DNA of 64,000 nt, from the NCBI RefSeq assembly GCF_001428105.1, contig NZ_LMSJ01000002.1, positions 159,475 to 223,474 of the forward strand, in the 5' to 3' direction. The position numbers and the translations under genes are program-made. The stretch is from Paenibacillus sp. Soil766 (GTDB taxonomy: Bacteria; Bacillota; Bacilli; Paenibacillales; NBRC-103111). Below are positions 16,448 through 53,011 of this stretch, piece by piece. The notes under the pieces are model-generated. The model did not search any database. It had not been told where the DNA came from and saw only the letters and a list, made by a program, of their open reading frames with translations. Within the stretch, counting starts at the first letter, position 1; the number at the start of each line of letters is the position of its first letter.

Positions 16448-17143
16448 TCATACCGTCAAGTGCTTCCGGACAAGCTCTTCGCTCAGGTGCTCATCTTTCC
16501 CTTCGGCAGCAATGGTGCCGCGGTCGAGTACATAATAGTAATCAGCGATGCTTGTGGCAAATTCTAAGCTTTGCTCTACTAGAAGAACGGCAATTTCTCG
16601 ATTGCGTTTAATCGTTTCAATGATGGCCTCAATCTCCAAGACGATAGATGGCTGTATCCCCTCCATAGGTTCATCCAGAAGCAACAGTTTAGGTCCTGGA
16701 GCTAATGCCCGTGCGATAGCTAATTGCTGCTGCTGACCACCGCTGAGGTCCCCGCCTTTGCGATGGAGCATTTGTCGAAGCACAGGAAACGTATCGAAAA
16801 TCGTATCGGGTAATTTCTTGCGACGGTCTGATGAGGCTTCTAAGCCAAGTAAAAGATTTTCTTCGACAGTGAGTTGGGGGAATATCTCCCTGCCCTGTGG
16901 TACATAGCCAATGCCTGACTTGGCACGGCGATCTGGTGAAGATGTAGTGATCTCTGTATCCGCGTAATGAATGGAACCCGATCGGGGCTTAATGAGCCCC
17001 ATAATACTCTTCATTAATGTTGATTTCCCAACGCCGTTGCGTCCCATTAGACAAACGATCTGACCGGGTCTTACTTCGAGGTTGACGTTACGTATAACCA
17101 TGCTTTCACCATAGCCCGACTCTATACTTTGTAGTTTAAGCAC
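16448..17143 (-). CDS. urtE: Urea ABC transporter ATPase UrtE
   Basis: This is the second ATPase (LivF type) of the urea importer. Walker A GRNGVGKST, signature LSGGQQQQLAIARAL and Walker B LLLLDEPMEGIQPS are all present; the last is the UrtE form that ends in EGIQPS. Two starts are possible. TTG at 17152 is only two bases from GGAAGGAG, so GTG at 17143, 11 bases away, is preferred, giving about 231 residues. It overlaps the end of urtD. It is the last gene of urtABCDE and pairs with UrtD on the UrtB/UrtC channel. Confidence 0.94.
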   Translation of the reverse strand: MLKLQSIESGYGESMVIRNVNLEVRPGQIVCLMGRNGVGKSTLMKSIMGLIKPRSGSIHYADTEITTSSPDRRAKSGIGYVPQGREIFPQLTVEENLLLGLEASSDRRKKLPDTIFDTFPVLRQMLHRKGGDLSGGQQQQLAIARALAPGPKLLLLDEPMEGIQPSIVLEIEAIIETIKRNREIAVLLVEQSLEFATSIADYYYVLDRGTIAAEGKDEHLSEELVRKHLTV

Positions 17144-17927
17144 GGCGTTCAACTCTCCTTCCGAGGTAGACTTCCGCTACTTTATCGTCATTCTGAATAT
17201 CTTGCATAGTGCCTTCACGCAGGACGGTTCCTTCATGGAGAACGGTTACCATTTGAGCGAATTGGCGTACGAAGGCCATGTCGTGCTCAACGACAATAAT
17301 AGTCCGATTCGCTGCAATTTCATGAAGCAGTTCACCTGTTTTCTCTGTTTCACTATCCGTCATGCCAGCGGCGGGCTCATCGAGCAGCAAGAGATCAGGC
17401 TCTTGCATGAGAAGCATGCCGATTTCAAGCCACTGCTTCTCACCGTGGGAGAGGGAGCCCGCACGTTCGTTGGCTTTGCTTGTCAGACCAATCATGCCAA
17501 GCCTCAGGTGAAGTCGTTCTCTTTGATCACTTGTGGTTTTGGCCCAGAGCGCGCTGAGGAGTCCGCGCTGCTGCTTCATCGAAAGTGCCAAATTTTCAAA
17601 CACTGTCAACGTGGAGAAAACGGTAGGTGTTTGGAATTTGCGTCCAATCCCAAGCTGGGCAATTTGGTGCTCCTGGTGCTTGGTGAGGTCAATCGAACCC
17701 TTGAATAAGACGTGGCCTTGGGAAGGCTTTACTTTGCCGCAAATGACATCAAGCAGTGTTGTTTTGCCAGCACCATTGGGACCGATAAGGAAGCGGAGTT
17801 CACCTTGTTTTAACGAGAAATCTAGATTTCGCAAGGCTTTGAAACCGTCGAAGTTCACCTCAAGTCCCTTGACGCTCAGGATTGTCTCATCTGTTGTCGG
17901 TTGTAGTTTCGCTAATTGTCCTAGCAT
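17136..17927 (-). CDS. urtD: Urea ABC transporter ATPase UrtD
   Basis: This is the LivG-type ATPase of the urea importer. Walker A GPNGAGKTT, signature LSHGEKQWLEIGMLL (the UrtD form, with HGEKQWLEI) and Walker B LLLLDEPAAGMTDSE are present. It is 263 residues. ATG at 17927 follows AAAGGGGAA. It stands 35 bases after urtC and overlaps the start of urtE, so it is translationally coupled. Confidence 0.96.
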   Translation of the reverse strand: MLGQLAKLQPTTDETILSVKGLEVNFDGFKALRNLDFSLKQGELRFLIGPNGAGKTTLLDVICGKVKPSQGHVLFKGSIDLTKHQEHQIAQLGIGRKFQTPTVFSTLTVFENLALSMKQQRGLLSALWAKTTSDQRERLHLRLGMIGLTSKANERAGSLSHGEKQWLEIGMLLMQEPDLLLLDEPAAGMTDSETEKTGELLHEIAANRTIIVVEHDMAFVRQFAQMVTVLHEGTVLREGTMQDIQNDDKVAEVYLGRRVERRA

Positions 17928-17962: not shown

Positions 17963-19045
17963 TCATGTTTCTATGACTTCTTGCGATGTAGCGATCTGCT
18001 TTGGACGCTGAGTTCTTTTCCAATTGGAGAAATAGGGGGTCAATGTGCCGACGATTCCTTTCGGCAGTAAGAGAACAACGACAATGAACATGGCGCCGAG
18101 CATGATTGGCCACCAAGCTGGATAGGCTTCGCTGAAGGTTGTTTTAGCTGCATTCGTAACTAATGCCCCAAGAACAGCGCCGCCAATTGTTGAACGACCA
18201 CCGATGGCTACCCATAGCACCATCTCAATAGATGGCACGATCCCCATTTGGGCAGGGGAGATGATCCCTTCTTGAAGGACATAGAGTACGCCGGCAAGTC
18301 CAGCTAACCCCGCGGATAAACAGTAGATGAAAACTTTATACGTAACCGGATTATAGCCAATGAATCGCACCCGATTCTCACCATCGCGAATGGCTGTAAG
18401 AATGTTGCCCAGTCGGCTTGTCACGAGCAAGGTGCTAAGGATCAGTACGATAATCACAATAGCTAGGGTGAGGTAGAAAAACAATAACTTGGTTGATTGT
18501 AATTGCAGATTCAGACCAAGAAAGGTCGAGAAATTCGTCAAACCATTCGTCCCGCCCGTATAACCTTGCTGACCTACGAAGAGTGTCACCGTAATGATGA
18601 CTAAGGCTTGGGATAAAATGGAGAAGAATGCGCCTTTAATCCGATTACGGAACGTGAAATACCCAAGGATGAAGGCGACGATCATCGGTACAATGAGCGC
18701 CAATAGGAACGCGGCCGCGGCACTGTGGAATGGCACCCAGAACCACGGCAAGCTTTTGACACCACTCCAGGACATGAAATCAGGCAATTGATTAGGCATA
18801 GAAGCCAGCTTCAAATGCATCGCCATACAATAAGCGCCGAGTCCGAAATAAACGCCATGACCAAGGCTTAAAATACCGGTATATCCCCAGATTAAATCAA
18901 TTCCGATCGCGATAATGGCATAAGCAAGGAATTTGCCGAGTAAGGATAAACGAAAGTCAGACAAGAAGAGGGGGGCAAGCGCGATGAGCAGCAGGCAGAT
19001 CCCATAGATGCTTAGTTTGAGCTTAGAATGTTTGGAGAAAAGCAT
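17963..19045 (-). CDS. urtC: Urea ABC transporter permease UrtC
   Basis: This LivM-type permease forms one half of the urea channel. It has about ten hydrophobic helices, with [20 protein letters not shown] in the first third and the coupling-loop region [37 protein letters not shown] is typical of UrtC/LivM. It has 360 residues, the usual length. It lies 22 bases downstream of urtB. A basic C-terminal tail follows the last helix. Confidence 0.96.
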
Positions 19046-19067: not shown

Positions 19068-19973
19068 TCAATCTAAGGATCTCGAACGCATCGTTACAAG
19101 ACCCATTGGTTTCCATTGTAGGAAGGCGATGATCAGTGTAAACACAAGTACCTTGCCGAGTGTGGCGCTGGTTGTGTACTCCAAGGCCGTATTGAAAACA
19201 CCGATTCCTAATGCGCCGGCTACGGTGCCGATCAACTTGCCAATCCCGCCAAGTACAACGACCATAAAGGCATCTACAATATAATAGGTCCCAATTGTAG
19301 GCCCGATCGGTCCAAGTAAGGACAGGGCACAGCCAGCGATACCTGCCATTGCAGAGCCGAAAGCGAAGGATTGTGCATCGACTCTACGCGTGGATATGCC
19401 TAAACATGAAGCCATTTGGCGATTCTGCATAACCGCTCTCATACGTCTTCCGCCTGCAGAGTGATAGAGATAGAGGTAGATGATCAAGATGCATATTGCC
19501 ACAAGTCCAATGATAAAGAGTCTCTTATATGGAAGAATTAAATCTGCCGTTGCATGCCATCCGCCTTCTAGCCATTGCGGTGCTTTCACTGCGACATTGG
19601 GAGCGCCGAAGATGGATCGCGCAATTTGCTGTAAGGCAAGGGAGACCCCCCAGGTAGCTAATAAACTATCCAATGGTCTGCCGTACATGAAGCGGATAAG
19701 CACAACTTCGAGCAGCCAGCCTATCGCAAAGGCGACGACAAAGGCAACGCCAAGTGATACGACGAAATACCAACCGAATGCAGAGGCAGGCAAATAGGAT
19801 TGGAACCATTTCTGCACGAGGTAAGCCATGTAAGCACCGATCATAATAAATTCGCCATGCGCCATATTCATAACATTCATCAGACCGAACGTAATGGCGA
19901 GACCGATTGCGATCAAAAGCAGTATGGAGCTTAAGCTGAGTCCGTTAAATATTTGAAGCAGCAGTAAACTCAT
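19068..19973 (-). CDS. urtB: Urea ABC transporter permease UrtB
   Basis: This LivH-type permease is the other half of the channel. It has eight or so hydrophobic helices, the motif GLAITFGLMNVMNMAHGEFIM split over residues 22-43, and a late VVLGGIGKLIGTVAGALG segment. It is 301 residues. ATG at 19973 follows AGAGGAG. A gap of 91 bases holding a hairpin separates it from urtA, which probably sets the permease level below that of the binding protein. Confidence 0.96.
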   Translation of the reverse strand: MSLLLLQIFNGLSLSSILLLIAIGLAITFGLMNVMNMAHGEFIMIGAYMAYLVQKWFQSYLPASAFGWYFVVSLGVAFVVAFAIGWLLEVVLIRFMYGRPLDSLLATWGVSLALQQIARSIFGAPNVAVKAPQWLEGGWHATADLILPYKRLFIIGLVAICILIIYLYLYHSAGGRRMRAVMQNRQMASCLGISTRRVDAQSFAFGSAMAGIAGCALSLLGPIGPTIGTYYIVDAFMVVVLGGIGKLIGTVAGALGIGVFNTALEYTTSATLGKVLVFTLIIAFLQWKPMGLVTMRSRSLD

Positions 19974-20064: not shown

Positions 20065-21315
20065 TTATTTCGTTACTTCTGCGCCCCAAGGGTATGTTTT
20101 GAGGAAAGGATCTGGTTTAAGCGCTTTACCGGAATTCCAAATTTCCTTGATTTGACCATCCGCTGTAATTTGGCCGATACGTGCTGTTTTGTAAATATGT
20201 TGATTCTCACCATCAATGGTGACTTTACCTTCAGGTGAATTCCACTCGATTCCTTTGGCGGCTGCTTTTACTTTCTCTACATCAAAGGAGCCAGCTTTCT
20301 TCACAGCTTCAGCCCACAGATAGACAGCTGTGTATCCAGCTTCAATCGGATCATCCGTTACACGGTCCTTACCATATTTGGCCTTGTAAGCTTCAACAAA
20401 TTTTTTGTTTTCAGGTGTATCTGTTGTTTGGTAGTAGTTCCATGCTGTGTAGTGACCATCGAGAACGGAGGCGCCGATACCGCGCACTTCTTCTTCAGCA
20501 ATACTCACGGACATGGTTGTTAGATCTTTAGCCGTAATACCGGCATCTTTCAACTGCTTGAAGAAGGCAACGTTACTATCGCCGTTCAATGTGTTGAAGA
20601 CAACGTCCGGTTTTTCCTTTTTAATCTTACTAATGATTGTATTGTAGTCGGTGTGTCCAAGCGGTGTGTATTCCTCAGCAACAAGTGTTCCGCCATCTGC
20701 TTTCAATTGCTCTTTAATAATTTTGTTGGCTGTTCGAGGGAAGACGTAATCGGAACCAAGGAGGAAGAATTTCTTGCCTTTGTTTTGAAGGAGCCATGTG
20801 ACTGCGGGGATGATTTGTTGATTCGTTGTTGCGCCGATGTAGAAGATGTTAGGTGAGGATTCTACGCCTTCATACTGAACCGGATACCACAGTAATCCTT
20901 TATTTTGCTCGACAACCGGCAGTACAGCTTTACGGCTAGCCGATGTCCAACACCCGAAAATTGTGACTACGCTGTCTTTTTGCAGGAGCTTCTTTGTCTT
21001 CTCTGCAAAAGTTGGCCAATCCGATGCCCCATCTTCGATCACGGGTTTAATCTTTTTGCCTAGTAATCCCCCAGCTGCATTAATTTCATCAATCGCCATG
21101 AGCTCAGCATCTCGAACAGATACCTCACTGATGGACATTGTACCTGTTAGTGAGTGAAGAATGCCCACAGGTACAGTGTCGCCAGATGTTGTGGAAGCCA
21201 CAGGTGCAGTCGTCGTAGAGGTGGTAGATTCTGTCTTCGCACAGCCGGCCGCTACTAACATCAAAGCCATACTTAGTGCAACTGTAAGCTTACCTTTGTT
21301 TCTTATCTCTCTCAT
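20065..21315 (-). CDS. urtA: Urea-binding lipoprotein UrtA
   Basis: This is the extracellular urea receptor of the ABC importer. A lipoprotein signal ends in VAAGC with the lipidated Cys at 25, followed by a Ser/Thr-rich linker. The binding domain is the amide-binding class I fold, with [18 protein letters not shown] and [18 protein letters not shown], the latter close to the UrtA hallmark. It has 416 residues. ATG at 21315 follows AGGGAGTGG. It is the first gene of urtABCDE and is divergent from ureA; the shared region carries two GlnR/TnrA boxes. Confidence 0.97.
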
Positions 21316-21350: not shown

Positions 21351-21379
21351 TACATGGCTTATGATAAATGGCGAGACAA
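21351..21379 (-). promoter_or_regulatory. Possible activator-dependent promoter of urtA
   Basis: On the minus strand TTGTCT (21379-21374) precedes a poor -10 (CATGTA, 21356-21351) by 17 bases. The centre of the GlnR/TnrA box at 21385-21401 would be about 49 bases upstream of the start, the place where TnrA activates weak promoters. Confidence 0.45.
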
Positions 21380-21384
21380 GTTAG

Positions 21385-21401
21385 TGTCAATATATATGAC
21401 A
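21385..21401. promoter_or_regulatory. GlnR/TnrA box 1 (urtA side)
   Basis: TGTCAATATATATGACA fits TGTNA-N7-TNACA at every fixed position and is also a good palindrome. It lies on the urtA side of the divergent region. Confidence 0.85.
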
Positions 21402-21499
21402 TTAACATGAGGTATTTTAGTGGGGATGCACAATTTTGAGTGAAATACTTGTGAAAATCACATGAAATCGAAAAAAGTGTTTTGAATATCGCAATTTTA

Positions 21500-21516
21500 T
21501 GTGAGAATACATGACA
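21500..21516. promoter_or_regulatory. GlnR/TnrA box 2 (ureA side)
   Basis: TGTGAGAATACATGACA fits TGTNA-N7-TNACA at every fixed position. Its centre is about 51 bases upstream of the predicted urease transcription start, the classical TnrA activation distance. Confidence 0.85.
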
Positions 21517-21523
21517 TACAAGA

Positions 21524-21552
21524 TTTACAATCATGAAAACCACGAATATAAT
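21524..21552 (+). promoter_or_regulatory. Predicted urease operon promoter
   Basis: TTTACA (21524-21529) and a perfect TATAAT (21547-21552) are separated by 17 bases. Initiation near 21559 excludes the in-frame ATG at 21533 as the ureA start. Confidence 0.8.
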
Positions 21553-21598
21553 GAGTGTAAAGTATTTCCATAATTCGGTTTTTGAAGAGGTGAGACAC

Positions 21599-21901
21599 GT
21601 GCATTTAACGGAAAGAGAAAAAGAGAAATTGCTCATAACCGTAGCTGCTGACCTAGCCAGACGAAGATTAGCCAGAGGATTAAAGTTGAATTACCCGGAA
21701 AGTATTGCTCTGCTGACTTCCGAAATCTTGGAAGGAGCTAGGGATGGCTTGACGGTTGCGCAGCTCATGGCGTTTGGTACGACTATTTTGAAGGCAGATC
21801 AGGTTATGGAAGGTGTGCCTCAAATGATTCATGAGGTGCAAGTAGAAGCCACGTTCCCCGATGGAACCAAATTAGTTACCGTACATGAACCCATTATTTA
21901 A
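21599..21901 (+). CDS. ureA: Urease gamma subunit
   Basis: This is the smallest structural subunit of the nickel urease that hydrolyses urea to ammonia and carbamate. The sequence from [11 protein letters not shown] is typical from the second residue on, and [24 protein letters not shown] follows in two parts (about 30-54). The start is GTG at 21599, chosen because GAGGTGAG stands just upstream, the result is the standard 100 residues, and the upstream ATG would precede the transcript. It is the first gene of ureABCFGD. Confidence 0.96.
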
Positions 21902-21924: not shown

Positions 21925-22308
21925 ATGGTTCCCGGTGAATTTCGAACAGCTAAAGGCGATATAGAAATGAATGTTGGCAGACAAACGATTGGCATTATCG
22001 TTACCAATACAGGAGATCGACCGGTTCAAGTAGGGTCGCATTTTCACTTCTTTGAGGTCAATCGAGGATTAGATTTCACAAGAGAGGATGCCTTTGGGAT
22101 GCGCTTAGACATTCCGGCAGGAACGGCAGTCCGTTTCGAGCCTGGTGAGCAGAAGCCGGTTCAACTTGTCGAATTGGGCGGAGCGAAATTGAGCTATGGT
22201 CTTAACAATCTGAGTCAAGGCTTAGCGGAAAAAGACAAAATGACGGCCGAAACAAAAGCAAGATGGCAGGCTTGGGAGGGGTTGCTCGGTGAGTCGAATC
22301 GATCGTAA
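21925..22308 (+). CDS. ureB: Urease beta subunit
   Basis: This is the second structural subunit. Conserved segments include [16 protein letters not shown] at the N-terminus, [20 protein letters not shown] (residues about 29-48) and [16 protein letters not shown]. It has 127 residues; the C-terminal 25 are a variable tail. ATG at 21925 follows AAAGGGGCG. It lies 23 bases after ureA, and its last 20 bases overlap ureC, so the two are coupled. Confidence 0.97.
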
Positions 22309-24004
22309 GAACTATGCACTGATGTTTGGCCCTACAACAGGAGATGCCATTCGATTGGCAGACACAGAGCTCTGGGCACAAATTGAGCATGATTACACGG
22401 TATACGGGGATGAATGCAAATTTGGCGGCGGGAAGGTTATCCGTGACGGCATGGGACAATCTAGTGGCGCGACCCGGGCACAGGGTGTTCTAGATACCCT
22501 AATAACGAATGCTGTCATTATTGATCACTGGGGCATAGTCAAAGGCGATATCGGGATTCGGGATGGCCACATTGTTGGTATTGGCAAAGCAGGCAACCCG
22601 GATATCATGGATGGTGTGCATCCGAATATGATCGTAGGTGCAAGCACAGAGGTTATTGCTGGTGAGGGTAAACTCGTAACGGCCGGCGGCATCGATGCGC
22701 ATATCCATTTCATTTGTCCGCAGCAGATAGAAACTGCGCTTTCCTCAGGCGTGACGACGATGATCGGCGGTGGTACAGGGCCAGCAACGGGGACGAACGC
22801 GACAACATGCACGCCAGGCGCTTGGCACATGCAGCGGATGTTAGAGGCGGCTGAAGCGTTTCCGATGAATCTAGGCTTTACCGGCAAAGGGAACTCTTCC
22901 TTCTTGGAGCCTCTGACGGAACAAATTGAAGCGGGCGCCATTGGCTTGAAGCTTCATGAAGATTGGGGCACAACGCCGGCAGCGATCGACATGTGTTTGG
23001 AAGCGGCGGATCGCTATGATGTGCAAGTGGCGATTCATACGGATACATTAAATGAGGCGGGATTTCTTGAAGATACCTTGGCAGCGATAAAAGGGCGAAC
23101 AATTCATACGTACCATACCGAGGGCGCAGGGGGCGGTCATGCCCCGGATATTATCCGAGCAGCCGCTGAGTTGAACGTCTTGCCCTCCTCGACCAATCCG
23201 ACTCGTCCGTACACGATCAATACAATCGAAGAACATTTGGATATGTTGATGGTGTGTCATCACTTGGATAGTCGAATTCCGGAGGATGTCGCTTTCGCGG
23301 ATTCGCGAATTCGTCCTGAGACGATTGCAGCAGAAGATATTCTGCATGACCTAGGCGTGTTCAGTATGTTAAGCTCTGATTCCCAGGCGATGGGGAGAGT
23401 TGGCGAGGTCATTATTCGAACGTGGCAAACGGCGGATAAAATGAAAAAACAACGCGGCCCCCTAGCTCCCGATACCGAAGACAATGATAATTTTCGCATC
23501 AAGCGCTACATCGCGAAATATACAATAAATCCAGCGATTACCCACGGCATCTCGCATCTTGTTGGGTCGATTGAACCCGGTAAGTTTGCAGATTTGGTCA
23601 TTTGGAGTCCCATGTTTTTCGGTGTGAAGCCGGATCTCGTTCTTAAGGGTGGCAGCATCGCGTATGCGCAAATGGGCGATCCGAACGCTTCAATACCAAC
23701 ACCGCAGCCAGTCTTCGGAAGACCGATGTTCGCAGCATTTGGGAAAGCGTTAACGCAAAGCTCCATTACTTTCGTTTCTCAGGCAGCATATGACAGCGGA
23801 ATCGGAAAACGATTCGGATTGCAGAAGCGGATTGAGCCGGTGAAAGGCTGCCGCAGCATTTCCAAGAGGGATATGATTCATAATGATGGAACTCCTTCTA
23901 TAGAAGTGAATCCGGAAACTTACGAGGTGAAGGTGGATGGCGAAGCCGTGACCTGTGAGCCTGCGACAGAGCTTCCGATGGCACAGTTATATTTCTTATT
24001 TTAA
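22289..24004 (+). CDS. ureC: Urease alpha (catalytic) subunit
   Basis: This subunit carries the dinuclear nickel site. The expected residues are all present: H138 and H140 (DAHIHF), K221 to be carbamylated (GLKLHEDWG), H250 (IHTDTLNE), H276 ([14 protein letters not shown]) and D364 (SSDSQAMGR). The flap has the catalytic His at 324 (MVCHH). It is 571 residues, full length. GTG at 22289 follows GGGAGGGG. It belongs to the amidohydrolase superfamily and acts in the cytoplasm. Urea enters through the divergent UrtABCDE. Confidence 0.98.
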
Positions 24005-24042
24005 AAAAAGAATGGAAGACAGTCCCGATTGAGGTGACAACA

Positions 24043-24747
24043 ATGACTGCGTTCGAACATCCACCGTTCCACTGGTTAGCCTATCAGCAATTGTTGGATT
24101 CGGCGCTTCCAATTGGTGGGTTTTCCCACTCCTTTGGATTGGAAACACTAGTTCAGCAAGGAAGATTGACGACGATCTCCGAACTGGAAGCCTATATTCG
24201 GTCGATGCTTGCGGGCAGCTGGGCAACCTCGGATGCTATGGTCATTAAAGCGGCTTATCAGCATATCCCTCGAGGGGAGTTGGGACAGCTTTGGGACCTC
24301 GATCACATGCTTCATGTGCAGCGAGTGGGGAGTGAGACGCGGAGCGGTGTTCAGAAAATGGGGCGCAGATTGCTTCAACTATCACGTTCGCTGTATCCGC
24401 AGCTGCATTGGCAGCCGCTCGATGATGCGATAAGTGCGGGGAGATGCAGCTCGAATCATCCCGTTGTTCACGGTTGGGTGAGCTACCATCTGGGGGTTCC
24501 TCTCCATCAGGCTGCTGAAGGGTATCTCTATACTTGTATTATGACGAGTATCAACAGTGCACTTCGGCTGATGTCCATAGGACAAACACAAGGGCAGATG
24601 TTACTTGCGAAGCTGGTTCCTTTGACGGGAAGTGAATGGCAGCGCGTTTCACAGATGGATCCGATGGAGGCTTATACGAATTCACCGTCGGCTGATCTTG
24701 CGATGATGCAGCATGAAACGTTATATTCACGGTTATTCATGTCTTAA
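24043..24747 (+). CDS. ureF: Urease accessory protein UreF
   Basis: This nickel-insertion chaperone bridges UreD and the UreG GTPase on apo-urease. The family motifs SALPIGGFSHSFGLE and TYCQQGRL-like TLVQQGRLTT are near the N-terminus, and an all-helical body follows. ATG at 24043 was chosen because GAGGTG (24031-24036) stands 6 bases before it; an in-frame GTG at 24034 lies within that site. This gives 234 residues. It follows ureC by 38 bases, with no ureE between them. Confidence 0.94.
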   Translation: MTAFEHPPFHWLAYQQLLDSALPIGGFSHSFGLETLVQQGRLTTISELEAYIRSMLAGSWATSDAMVIKAAYQHIPRGELGQLWDLDHMLHVQRVGSETRSGVQKMGRRLLQLSRSLYPQLHWQPLDDAISAGRCSSNHPVVHGWVSYHLGVPLHQAAEGYLYTCIMTSINSALRLMSIGQTQGQMLLAKLVPLTGSEWQRVSQMDPMEAYTNSPSADLAMMQHETLYSRLFMS

Positions 24748-24783
24748 TTGACAGTTTATTCATATATCTGAGGAGGAATGACG

Positions 24784-25446
24784 ATGTGTCAAGGTAACGG
24801 TCAACATCATCATCACGAATGGGAGAAGCCTGCAGCAGATCGCAATCGCCCTATGCGAATTGGAATTGGAGGTCCCGTAGGCTCAGGCAAAACCGCGCTA
24901 GTAGAGCGCTTGGCAAGAAAGCTGAACGACCGCTATAGTATCGCAGTTATTACGAATGACATTTATACGAAGGAAGATGCACGTATTCTGATTAGTTCTG
25001 AAGCACTGCCAGAGGAGCGAATCATTGGGGTAGAGACAGGCGGATGTCCGCATACGGCGATCCGTGAGGATGCATCGATGAATTTCGAAGCGATTGAAGA
25101 GTTGGAGAAGCGATTCGTGAATCTCGATATTATTTTTATTGAGAGTGGCGGGGATAATTTGGCAGCTGCATTCAGTCCGGAGCTCGTGGATCGCTTCATC
25201 TATATTATTGACGTGGCCCAAGGGGAGAAGATTCCTCGTAAAGGAGGCCCTGGCATCATGCGTTCGGATATGTTAATTATCAATAAAATTGATCTTGCTC
25301 CATATGTAGGTGCTAGCCTAGAAGTGATGGATTCCGATACGAAAAAAATGCGCGGCGAGCGTCCGTATATCTTCTCAAACCTGATGGGTGGTACAGGGTT
25401 GGATGACATCGTGTCTTGGGTGGAGACGGAGTTCAGCCATGCCTAA
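24784..25446 (+). CDS. ureG: Urease accessory GTPase UreG
   Basis: This SIMIBI-class GTPase delivers nickel to urease with UreF and UreD. P-loop GPVGSGKT (30-37), [11 protein letters not shown] (57-67), the Ni-binding CPH motif (88-90, in [11 protein letters not shown]) and NKID are present. The N-terminus carries a short run of four histidines (HHHH at 8-11), an addition that may store or bind nickel. ATG at 24784 has AGGAGG at 24771-24776; the ATG at 24778 is too close to it. It has 220 residues. The stop overlaps the ureD start. Confidence 0.97.
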
Positions 25447-26293
25447 ACTGAAGGGGGAGATAACCGCACAATTTGCGGTGCGCAGCGGCTTCACACGGCT
25501 CGTACACAAATATCATGCCTCCCCGCTCAAAATTGCCAAAACGTTTCGTTATGAAAATGAAACGTGCAAAGTTGGTGCCGCCCCCATGGATCAATTAGGC
25601 GTCTATATGATGGATTGTTCACCTGGGCTGATGGCTGATGATCAATTTGAAATTAACATGCGCCTTGAAGAGGGCGCACGTGTTTTTCTAACGAACCAGT
25701 CGTTCACGAAGGTGCATCCTTCGGCTGAAGATCAGGGAAGCACGCAGCATCAGATACTTCGACTGGAAGCTGACGCGCTGCTTGAGTACATACCAGAACC
25801 ATTAATGCTGTATAAAGATGCAGTCTTATTCGCTGAAACGGAGGCACATTTAGCGAGAGGATCGACATTGATTTTCTCTGATATACTTTGTCCCGGTCGC
25901 ACGCAGCGAGGGGAAATATTTCACTATACAAAGTATGTGAACAGGATGAGGGTCTGGTATGAAGGCGAACTGATCTTTTATCAGAACCAGCGAATTGAAC
26001 CAGCGACGATGGAGCTGTCTTCACTAGGTTGCTGGGAAAAGGAGACGCATATGGGCAATCTGTTTATCTTCTCAGACCGTCTTGGGGCACGCCACCTTGA
26101 AGCTATTGTGGACAAATTAAGTCAACTGGAAGATGGGCAGGTACGTATGGGAGCGAGTCTAACGTATAAGCACGGGCTTGTGGTGACTGTCTTGGGCAGG
26201 CATGCTTGGGAGCTGCAAGATGTCCTGATGAAGGCATGGCATCAAATCCGCCGCAGTGTATTTGATTTAACACCATTGCTAGTGAACAAATAG
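25439..26293 (+). CDS. ureD: Urease accessory protein UreD (UreH)
   Basis: This scaffold protein binds apo-urease and receives UreF and UreG. It has 284 residues with the family segments [27 protein letters not shown] and [11 protein letters not shown]. The start is ATG at 25439, which overlaps the end of ureG by eight bases; the frame is open further upstream, but only within ureG. In this lineage ureD is last in the order ureABCFGD. The terminator is at 26291-26330. Confidence 0.95.
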
Positions 26294-52696: not shown

Positions 52697-53011
52697 TACA
52701 AATAACATTTTAACATTACAAATCTCAATATCCATTAATTTCGGCTAGGATGCATTTGTGTCATTGGACAGATAACTCTACACTAGCGGCTGATTATGAG
52801 AGGACGAAGTGTGTCCAAACGCCTTTATTAGGGAAGTGTTCAAGGAAATAGGACCACGTTTGAAATTTGCGCTATAGTGTATCGCTTTGACAGAGTTTGA
52901 ATGAATAGCCCGACTCTGGAAATTTCATTTATTTAATCCAATAATATTAGTAAATCTTAGAAATTAGATTATTCTGTCAACAATCGTAACAAAGGAGTAG
53001 CAATCAAACAA
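52697..53011. other. Gene-free stretch, 315 bases
   Basis: No open frame with a ribosome site, hairpin or repeat is visible. The right end contains the AAAGGAG (52991-52997) of the next gene. The central part (52770-52900) is richer in G and C than the genes around it. Confidence 0.45.

Follow-up and report, generated by a model that had tools for sequence, protein, structure and literature searches.

Introduction

GlnR boxes, repression by GlnR and regulation without TnrA in Paenibacillus are already known. According to the available text of one study, P. polymyxa GlnR lowers the expression of glnRA, glnA1, amtB, nasA, nasDC and glnQHMP, and deleting glnR improves growth on urea even though the strain lacks ureABC (PMC9948412). 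The C-terminus of GlnR binds inside the feedback-inhibited glutamine synthetase (FBI-GS), bringing two GlnR monomers together, as described in the accessible part of PMC9249791. The literature is divided on TnrA in Paenibacillus: in the portions available, a 2012 table credits tnrA to two Paenibacillus strains (PMC3412718), whereas P. polymyxa WLY78 is described as lacking TnrA (PMC9948412).

The locus studied here consists of divergent urea import (urt) and urease (ure) genes with one GlnR box for each promoter. In B. subtilis glnRA, one site lies over the -35 element, as at urt, and one lies just upstream, as at ure, and GlnR represses its own operon cooperatively (available text of PMC6191146), to which we liken the cooperation proposed below. 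Both glnRA sites serve a single promoter, whereas here there is one box per divergent promoter and the two are 11 helical turns apart. The P3 promoter of B. subtilis ureABC is driven by PucR, and Brandenburg reportedly found in 2002 that two sites cooperate there; to our knowledge, no urt operon is attached to ureABC. Urease at P3 is under GlnR repression, as predicted here, but unlike P3 the box pair in our locus is predicted to couple import with hydrolysis.

Paenibacillus nif resembles our locus in having GlnR without TnrA and two sites (I and II). Site I activates, whereas the urt box overlaps the -35 element; the likeness to site II lies in a box at +31 to +36 in the ure promoters of some relatives. 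For P. riograndensis nif, looping bridged by glutamine synthetase (GS) has been put forward, a model that Wang 2018 disputed (available text of PMC6191146). P. polymyxa nasA and nasD1 are, as here, divergent nitrogen genes that share GlnR sites, across a 353-bp gap and in a strain (WLY78) without ureABC; the available parts of that literature do not discuss helical phasing. A literature search covering mainly papers outside subscription returned no publication on a urt/ure switch, on fusion of a urt box with a -35 element or on helical phasing of GlnR boxes.

Results

A divergent urea locus with two GlnR boxes

The window (the whole 64,000-nucleotide stretch of DNA that was analysed) is part of an 8.26-Mb genome, and the closest named relative of its UrtA is that of Paenibacillus qinlingensis. 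The genes urtABCDE run leftwards and ureABCFGD rightwards from a gap of 283 bp (Table 1). An 11-gene urea block had been proposed from the sequence, and the gene families of all 11 members (UrtA-E plus UreA, B, C, F, G and D) were confirmed using NCBIfam and Pfam. The true start of ureD probably lies further inside its open reading frame. UreE (PF02814) was not found in a search of the whole genome; the His-rich stretch that opens UreG might help with nickel. The Rfam family RF02514 (5' ureB sRNA) matches the minus strand at 22441-22736, antisense to ureC, with 79.9 bits, a match that may only mirror coding conservation.

Table 1. Features of the urt/ure locus (positions in the window)
Feature	Position	Strand	Remarks
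urtE	16448..17152	-	TIGR03410 over cut-off
urtD	17136..17927	-	TIGR03411 over cut-off
urtC	17963..19045	-	TIGR03408 over cut-off
urtB	19068..19973	-	TIGR03409 over cut-off
urtA	20065..21315	-	urea ABC transporter substrate-binding protein; ATG at 21315; TIGR03407 over cut-off
urt -10 hexamer	21361..21366	-	TATCAT; predicted start near 21354
urt -35 hexamer	21385..21390	-	TTGACA; inside box 1, its last six bases
Box 1, predicted GlnR operator of urt	21385..21401		TGTCAATATATATGACA; minus-strand reading TGTCATATATATTGACA; perfect motif
Box 2, predicted GlnR operator of ure	21500..21516	+	TGTGAGAATACATGACA; perfect motif
ure -35 hexamer	21524..21529	+	TTTACA; promoter scan
ure -10 hexamer	21547..21552	+	TATAAT; predicted start near 21559
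ureA	21599..21901	+	urease gamma subunit; GTG start; NF009712 over cut-off
ureB	21925..22308	+	urease beta subunit; TIGR00192 over cut-off
ureC	22289..24004	+	urease alpha subunit; TIGR01792 over cut-off
ureF	24034..24747	+	PF01730
ureG	24778..25446	+	TIGR00101; N-terminus His-rich (sequence)
ureD	25388..26293	+	longest ORF; PF01774 from residue 73

As the original prediction stated, the gap between urtA and ureA contains two GlnR/TnrA boxes, each with 0 mismatches to the palindrome TGTNA-N7-TNACA. Perfection of the motif was rejected as a sign of significance by itself, the bare motif being near background: the window has three matches versus 1.19 expected (11 of 100 shuffles reach three), and the genome has 149 versus 125 for the reversed pattern. 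Restricted to an A/T-rich core, the motif is enriched genome-wide (32 forward and 31 reverse matches versus 12 and 14 in controls). It is conservation across relatives, not the motif match, that sets the pair above chance. Box 1 is conserved with at most one mismatch in all 33 Paenibacillaceae urtA upstream regions, and a box 2 equivalent is found at -51/-52 in 17 of 27 close UrtA orthologue loci. Other box-bearing places in the genome include glnRA, pucR, purine genes, an adenosine deaminase and a nitrite-reductase-like gene, a set consistent with a GlnR regulon. To judge from these sequences, urt and ure very probably answer jointly to nitrogen status through GlnR-type boxes. The third perfect motif of the window (TGTCAACAATCGTAACA, 52975-52991), just 5' of an open reading frame of unknown role, is probably a chance match.

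One GlnR, with TnrA not detected

Using the genome's own GlnR as query (E<=1e-7), we searched 22 genomes. The genome of the window, which is 99.63% complete, yielded a single GlnR, and no TnrA-like protein passed this threshold; the sole second match (5.7e-8) is an ordinary MerR protein. Against the PDB sequence set, the GlnR matched GlnR best (4r4e, 3e-33) and then TnrA (4e-16). All nine non-Paenibacillaceae Bacillales genomes with GlnR also yielded TnrA, and a tenth (G021) yielded neither. Short TnrA-like proteins were present in 4 of 11 other Paenibacillaceae genomes (five proteins of 71-97 aa: L145, L146, L151, L155 and L156). They lack the usual C-terminal tail and might compete for GlnR boxes as free DNA-binding proteins.

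The check for glnR and tnrA thus pointed to a genome with GlnR alone, a case in which, it had been argued, GlnR must do the activating. This does not follow: the GlnR of P. polymyxa, another species lacking TnrA, reduces the expression of nitrogen genes (available text of PMC9948412). The contrast drawn with B. subtilis has a loose premise as well, as ureABC is listed in papers as GlnR-repressed, yet is also named among TnrA-activated genes in the available text of PMC6191146.

The -35 hexamer of urt lies within box 1

A promoter scan returned the two best promoters of the region with 11 of 12 consensus matches each, one facing each way. The urt promoter (TTGACA-18-TATCAT, minus strand) has the right half of box 1 as its -35 hexamer, which puts the centre of this box at about -39, a predicted repressor position. 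Overlap of the operator with the -35 element, as in a GlnR-repressed promoter of the glnRA type, is found at the predicted urt promoter. An alternative -10 (TGTATT, 21354-21349), which would centre box 1 near -51, scores 0.6 versus 5.6; close relatives have TGTAAT at this weak position, which is not kept outside the closest group.

We analysed boxes at 32 Paenibacillaceae and 10 other Bacillales loci out of 80, the 38 left out being from actinobacteria, Chloroflexi and others. Together with the window, all 33 Paenibacillaceae urtA promoters have the fused arrangement (21 distinct boxes); because a TTGAC right half served as the criterion for picking the box in this set, the independent evidence consists of the -10 offset and the zero failures rather than of that half. 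The best -10 lies at 17 or 18 bp in all 33, in one of them (L014) tied with an offset of 11. Box 1 invariably has TTGAC(A/G) as its right half, with T and G always at positions 12 and 14, whereas the mirror positions 6 and 4 are variable, which suggests that the right half is under a second constraint. A sample of 59 family genomes, which overlaps with the named urtA loci in several genomes, contained 27 close UrtA orthologues. All 27 are divergent from ureA and have the fused box, and in 26 of them the -10 follows after 17 or 18 bp; three remote UrtA paralogues in the same sample (34-36% identity) do not have it. These counts do not support the claim that both boxes are activation sites at about -50, and a symmetric layout with activation from -50 on both sides was rejected as contradicted by the conserved urt promoter.

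The fused layout was found in 0 of 10 urtA upstream regions from other Bacillales, one of which (L047) has no box. Promoters there could not be assigned reliably, and we therefore make no claim of a shift from activation to repression. In the genome of the window, the fusion occurs at five other places (six matches versus one control). At another locus (L087:1871-1987; G000:C3 near 57342), a terminator-like hairpin lies no more than about 40 nt beyond a fused promoter (TTGACA-17-TATACT), with no long open reading frame. This promoter possibly drives a GlnR-controlled small RNA or leader. An inverted CGAAC...GTTCG repeat lies between the urt -10 and urtA in eight loci (L025, L026, L030, L031, L034, L035, L041 and L042) and is absent from the window; we take it to resemble PurR boxes.

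The ure promoter and the position of its box

The ure promoter (TTTACA-17-TATAAT, plus strand) is near-consensus, with box 2 centred at -51 from the predicted start at about 21559. Activation boxes at the TnrA sites treated by Wray in 1998 are said to be centred at about -49 to -51. The expectation that each box would lie about 49-51 bases upstream of its start thus agrees with the predicted ure promoter and disagrees with the predicted urt promoter. The genome's own glnRA box stands at -48, where repression is the expected role.

The TTTACA-17-TATAAT core is kept in 21 of 27 orthologues. Two of the 17 orthologues with a box at -51/-52 also carry one at +35/+36. The ure-side box is at -59 to -61 in three more (L230 and L231 have it at -61, a full turn further away) and only downstream, at +31 to +36, in six; the remaining orthologue has a one-mismatch box at -96 as its sole ure-side box. 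By analogy with nif site II, a box 3' of the start should be able to act only by repression. Because both core promoters are near-consensus, derepression explains the arrangement more simply.

Helical phasing of box pairs

The centres of boxes 1 and 2 are 115 bp, or 11 helical turns, apart. Nine relatives from the closest group (L005-L013) have spacings of 115 or 116, and another group (L025, L026, L030, L031 and L035) has 93 or 94. Spacings among the 27 orthologues were 104 (one), 114-117 (ten), 124-126 (five), 135-136 (three) and 139 (one), with long spacings of 170, 205, 207, 210 and 212; L224 has boxes at 63 and 145. L034 carries a single box, and the only partner box in L225, at 112, has one mismatch. 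The main clusters correspond to about 9 to 13 helical turns, and 139, 170, 205 and 207 fit whole turns poorly. In the 17 orthologues with a ure box at -51/-52, the boxes are anchored to their own promoters, and the gap between promoters amounts to about 10, 11, 12 or 13 turns. The orthologue statistic is based on 26 spacings, contributed by 25 of the 27 loci (L218 and L225, with a one-mismatch partner only, were left out). For spacings up to 150 bp, R was 0.83 at 10.45 bp with phase 0.00, and after deduplication by genus it was 0.73 (simulated p=0.00065).

Across the 59 family genomes there are 278 pairs of perfect boxes, versus 13 for the reversed pattern (110, 82, 49 and 37 versus 1, 4, 2 and 6 in four gap ranges). 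Among the pairs listed, 236 of 278 were measured (75/110, 75/82, 49/49 and 37/37), with spans entered by hand. Their spacings cluster near 42, 52, 62, 73, 84, 94, 105, 115, 126, 137 and 147 bp, with R=0.66 at the best period of 10.6 bp (maximum of 300 uniform simulations, 0.197) and R=0.64 at 10.45 bp (phase 0.01). Reduction to one genome per genus gave R=0.65 (n=87, null maximum 0.351), and deduplication by genus and spacing gave R=0.57 (n=140, null maximum 0.248); all these statistics ignore kinship, and orthologous pairs are non-independent. Phasing drops with distance (R of 0.78, 0.68, 0.63 and 0.45). Some regions were selected visually among the listed pairs; the 27-orthologue set is free of such selection. 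That boxes stay on the same face at distances of 4 to about 13 turns points to cooperation between GlnR dimers across the gap.

A sample of 43 genomes from the Bacillus-type family gave 17 pairs versus three in controls, mostly from one recurring locus at 67-68 bp, and no comparable phased set was found in it. This out-of-phase pair recurs in G092, G103, G106-G108, G110, G111, G114 and G115.

Discussion

We consider it rather probable that GlnR, probably with FBI-GS, shuts urt and ure as one cooperative unit under nitrogen excess. What the sequence shows is the pair of boxes, the -35 hexamer inside one of them, the constant geometry at ure, phasing along the helix, one GlnR and no TnrA detected; that GlnR occupies the boxes, in which direction it acts, that it binds cooperatively and that GS forms the bridge are our inferences. 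The intergenic region would be a bidirectional GlnR switch made as a single unit. When nitrogen is in excess, FBI-GS would keep GlnR in its DNA-binding form; GlnR on box 1 would cover the urt -35 element and block RNA polymerase, and GlnR would also sit on box 2, a short way 5' of the ure -35 element. The two dimers, on the same helix face 11 turns apart, would bind cooperatively, a GS oligomer possibly joining them through a small loop, and urease and the import of urea would thereby be closed together. When nitrogen is short, FBI-GS would be lost, GlnR would leave and both near-consensus sigma-A promoters would fire. The near-consensus cores and the downstream-only ure boxes in six of 27 orthologues count for repression, as do the negative control by P. 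polymyxa GlnR of six nitrogen genes or operons that carry boxes and the better growth of its deletion mutant on urea. Against control as one unit count the spacings that fit poorly, L225, L034 and the weakening of phasing with distance. Looping is opposed by P. polymyxa nif mutants that were judged not to support the loop model (available text of PMC6191146), and GS as the bridge is our suggestion; direct GlnR-GlnR contact or phasing to polymerase are possible alternatives.

Pure repression also has to be set against the activation of nif by GlnR from an upstream site, reported for P. polymyxa and P. sabinae (available text of PMC6191146 and PMC9894248). Since nif is activated in this way, the box at -51 could activate ure, and control may be mixed, with GlnR repressing urt through the fused box and activating ure under nitrogen shortage, as proposed for nif site I. 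The papers on P. polymyxa assign both roles to GlnR, and -51/-52 is a fixed position in 17 of 27 orthologues. However, a core as close to consensus as TTTACA-17-TATAAT (21 of 27) hardly needs an activator, six orthologues have a downstream box only and the box of the genome's own glnRA is at -48, where repression is expected; we regard mixed control as rather unlikely. Activation from about -50 on both sides, with GlnR replacing TnrA, agrees with the ure box at -51 and, if the weaker -10 (TGTATT, or TGTAAT in close relatives) were used, with a urt box near -51. The loss of TGTAAT outside the closest group, the universal TTGACA with a -10 at 17/18 bp and the expectation that a protein on the -35 hexamer should block polymerase make it very improbable.

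The phasing itself might reflect a preferred face of each box relative to RNA polymerase, without contact between GlnR dimers. Many tandem pairs share one promoter, and the ure box is at -51 or, in L230 and L231, one turn further at -61, as this account would have it. The divergent boxes are anchored at -39 and -51, each to its own promoter, and polymerase-face phasing alone does not demand steps of nearly whole turns in the distance between promoters from one species to another, which leaves it an unlikely explanation. That a TnrA-like protein missed through an assembly gap or divergence acts at the boxes is suggested by the short proteins in 4 of 11 other Paenibacillaceae genomes and by the two Paenibacillus tnrA of the 2012 table (available part of PMC3412718). 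It is a very doubtful account given the completeness of the genome, its only second match being an ordinary MerR protein and the recovery of TnrA by the same search in nine of nine non-Paenibacillaceae Bacillales with GlnR.

Under the cooperative repression that we favour, a lineage without TnrA could gain nitrogen-responsive urea uptake by fusing a GlnR operator to the -35 element, with control by derepression. The family-wide phasing, together with the near-whole-turn steps at a divergent promoter, is comparative evidence on the disputed GS loop at nif. More tentatively, and with somewhat more doubt than confidence, we suggest that FBI-GS serves as an architectural bridge of DNA, GS-held GlnR dimers clamping phased operator pairs throughout the Paenibacillaceae, including both urt/ure promoters. 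If this is true, one GS-GlnR clamp at urt/ure would close two divergent promoters at once.

A further pair of GlnR boxes, 94 bp apart, lies 5' of an operon with DUF1989 and biotin-carboxylase-like proteins (L099:2045-3735). The biotin-carboxylase-like protein is, judged by eye, of the urea or guanidine carboxylase type.
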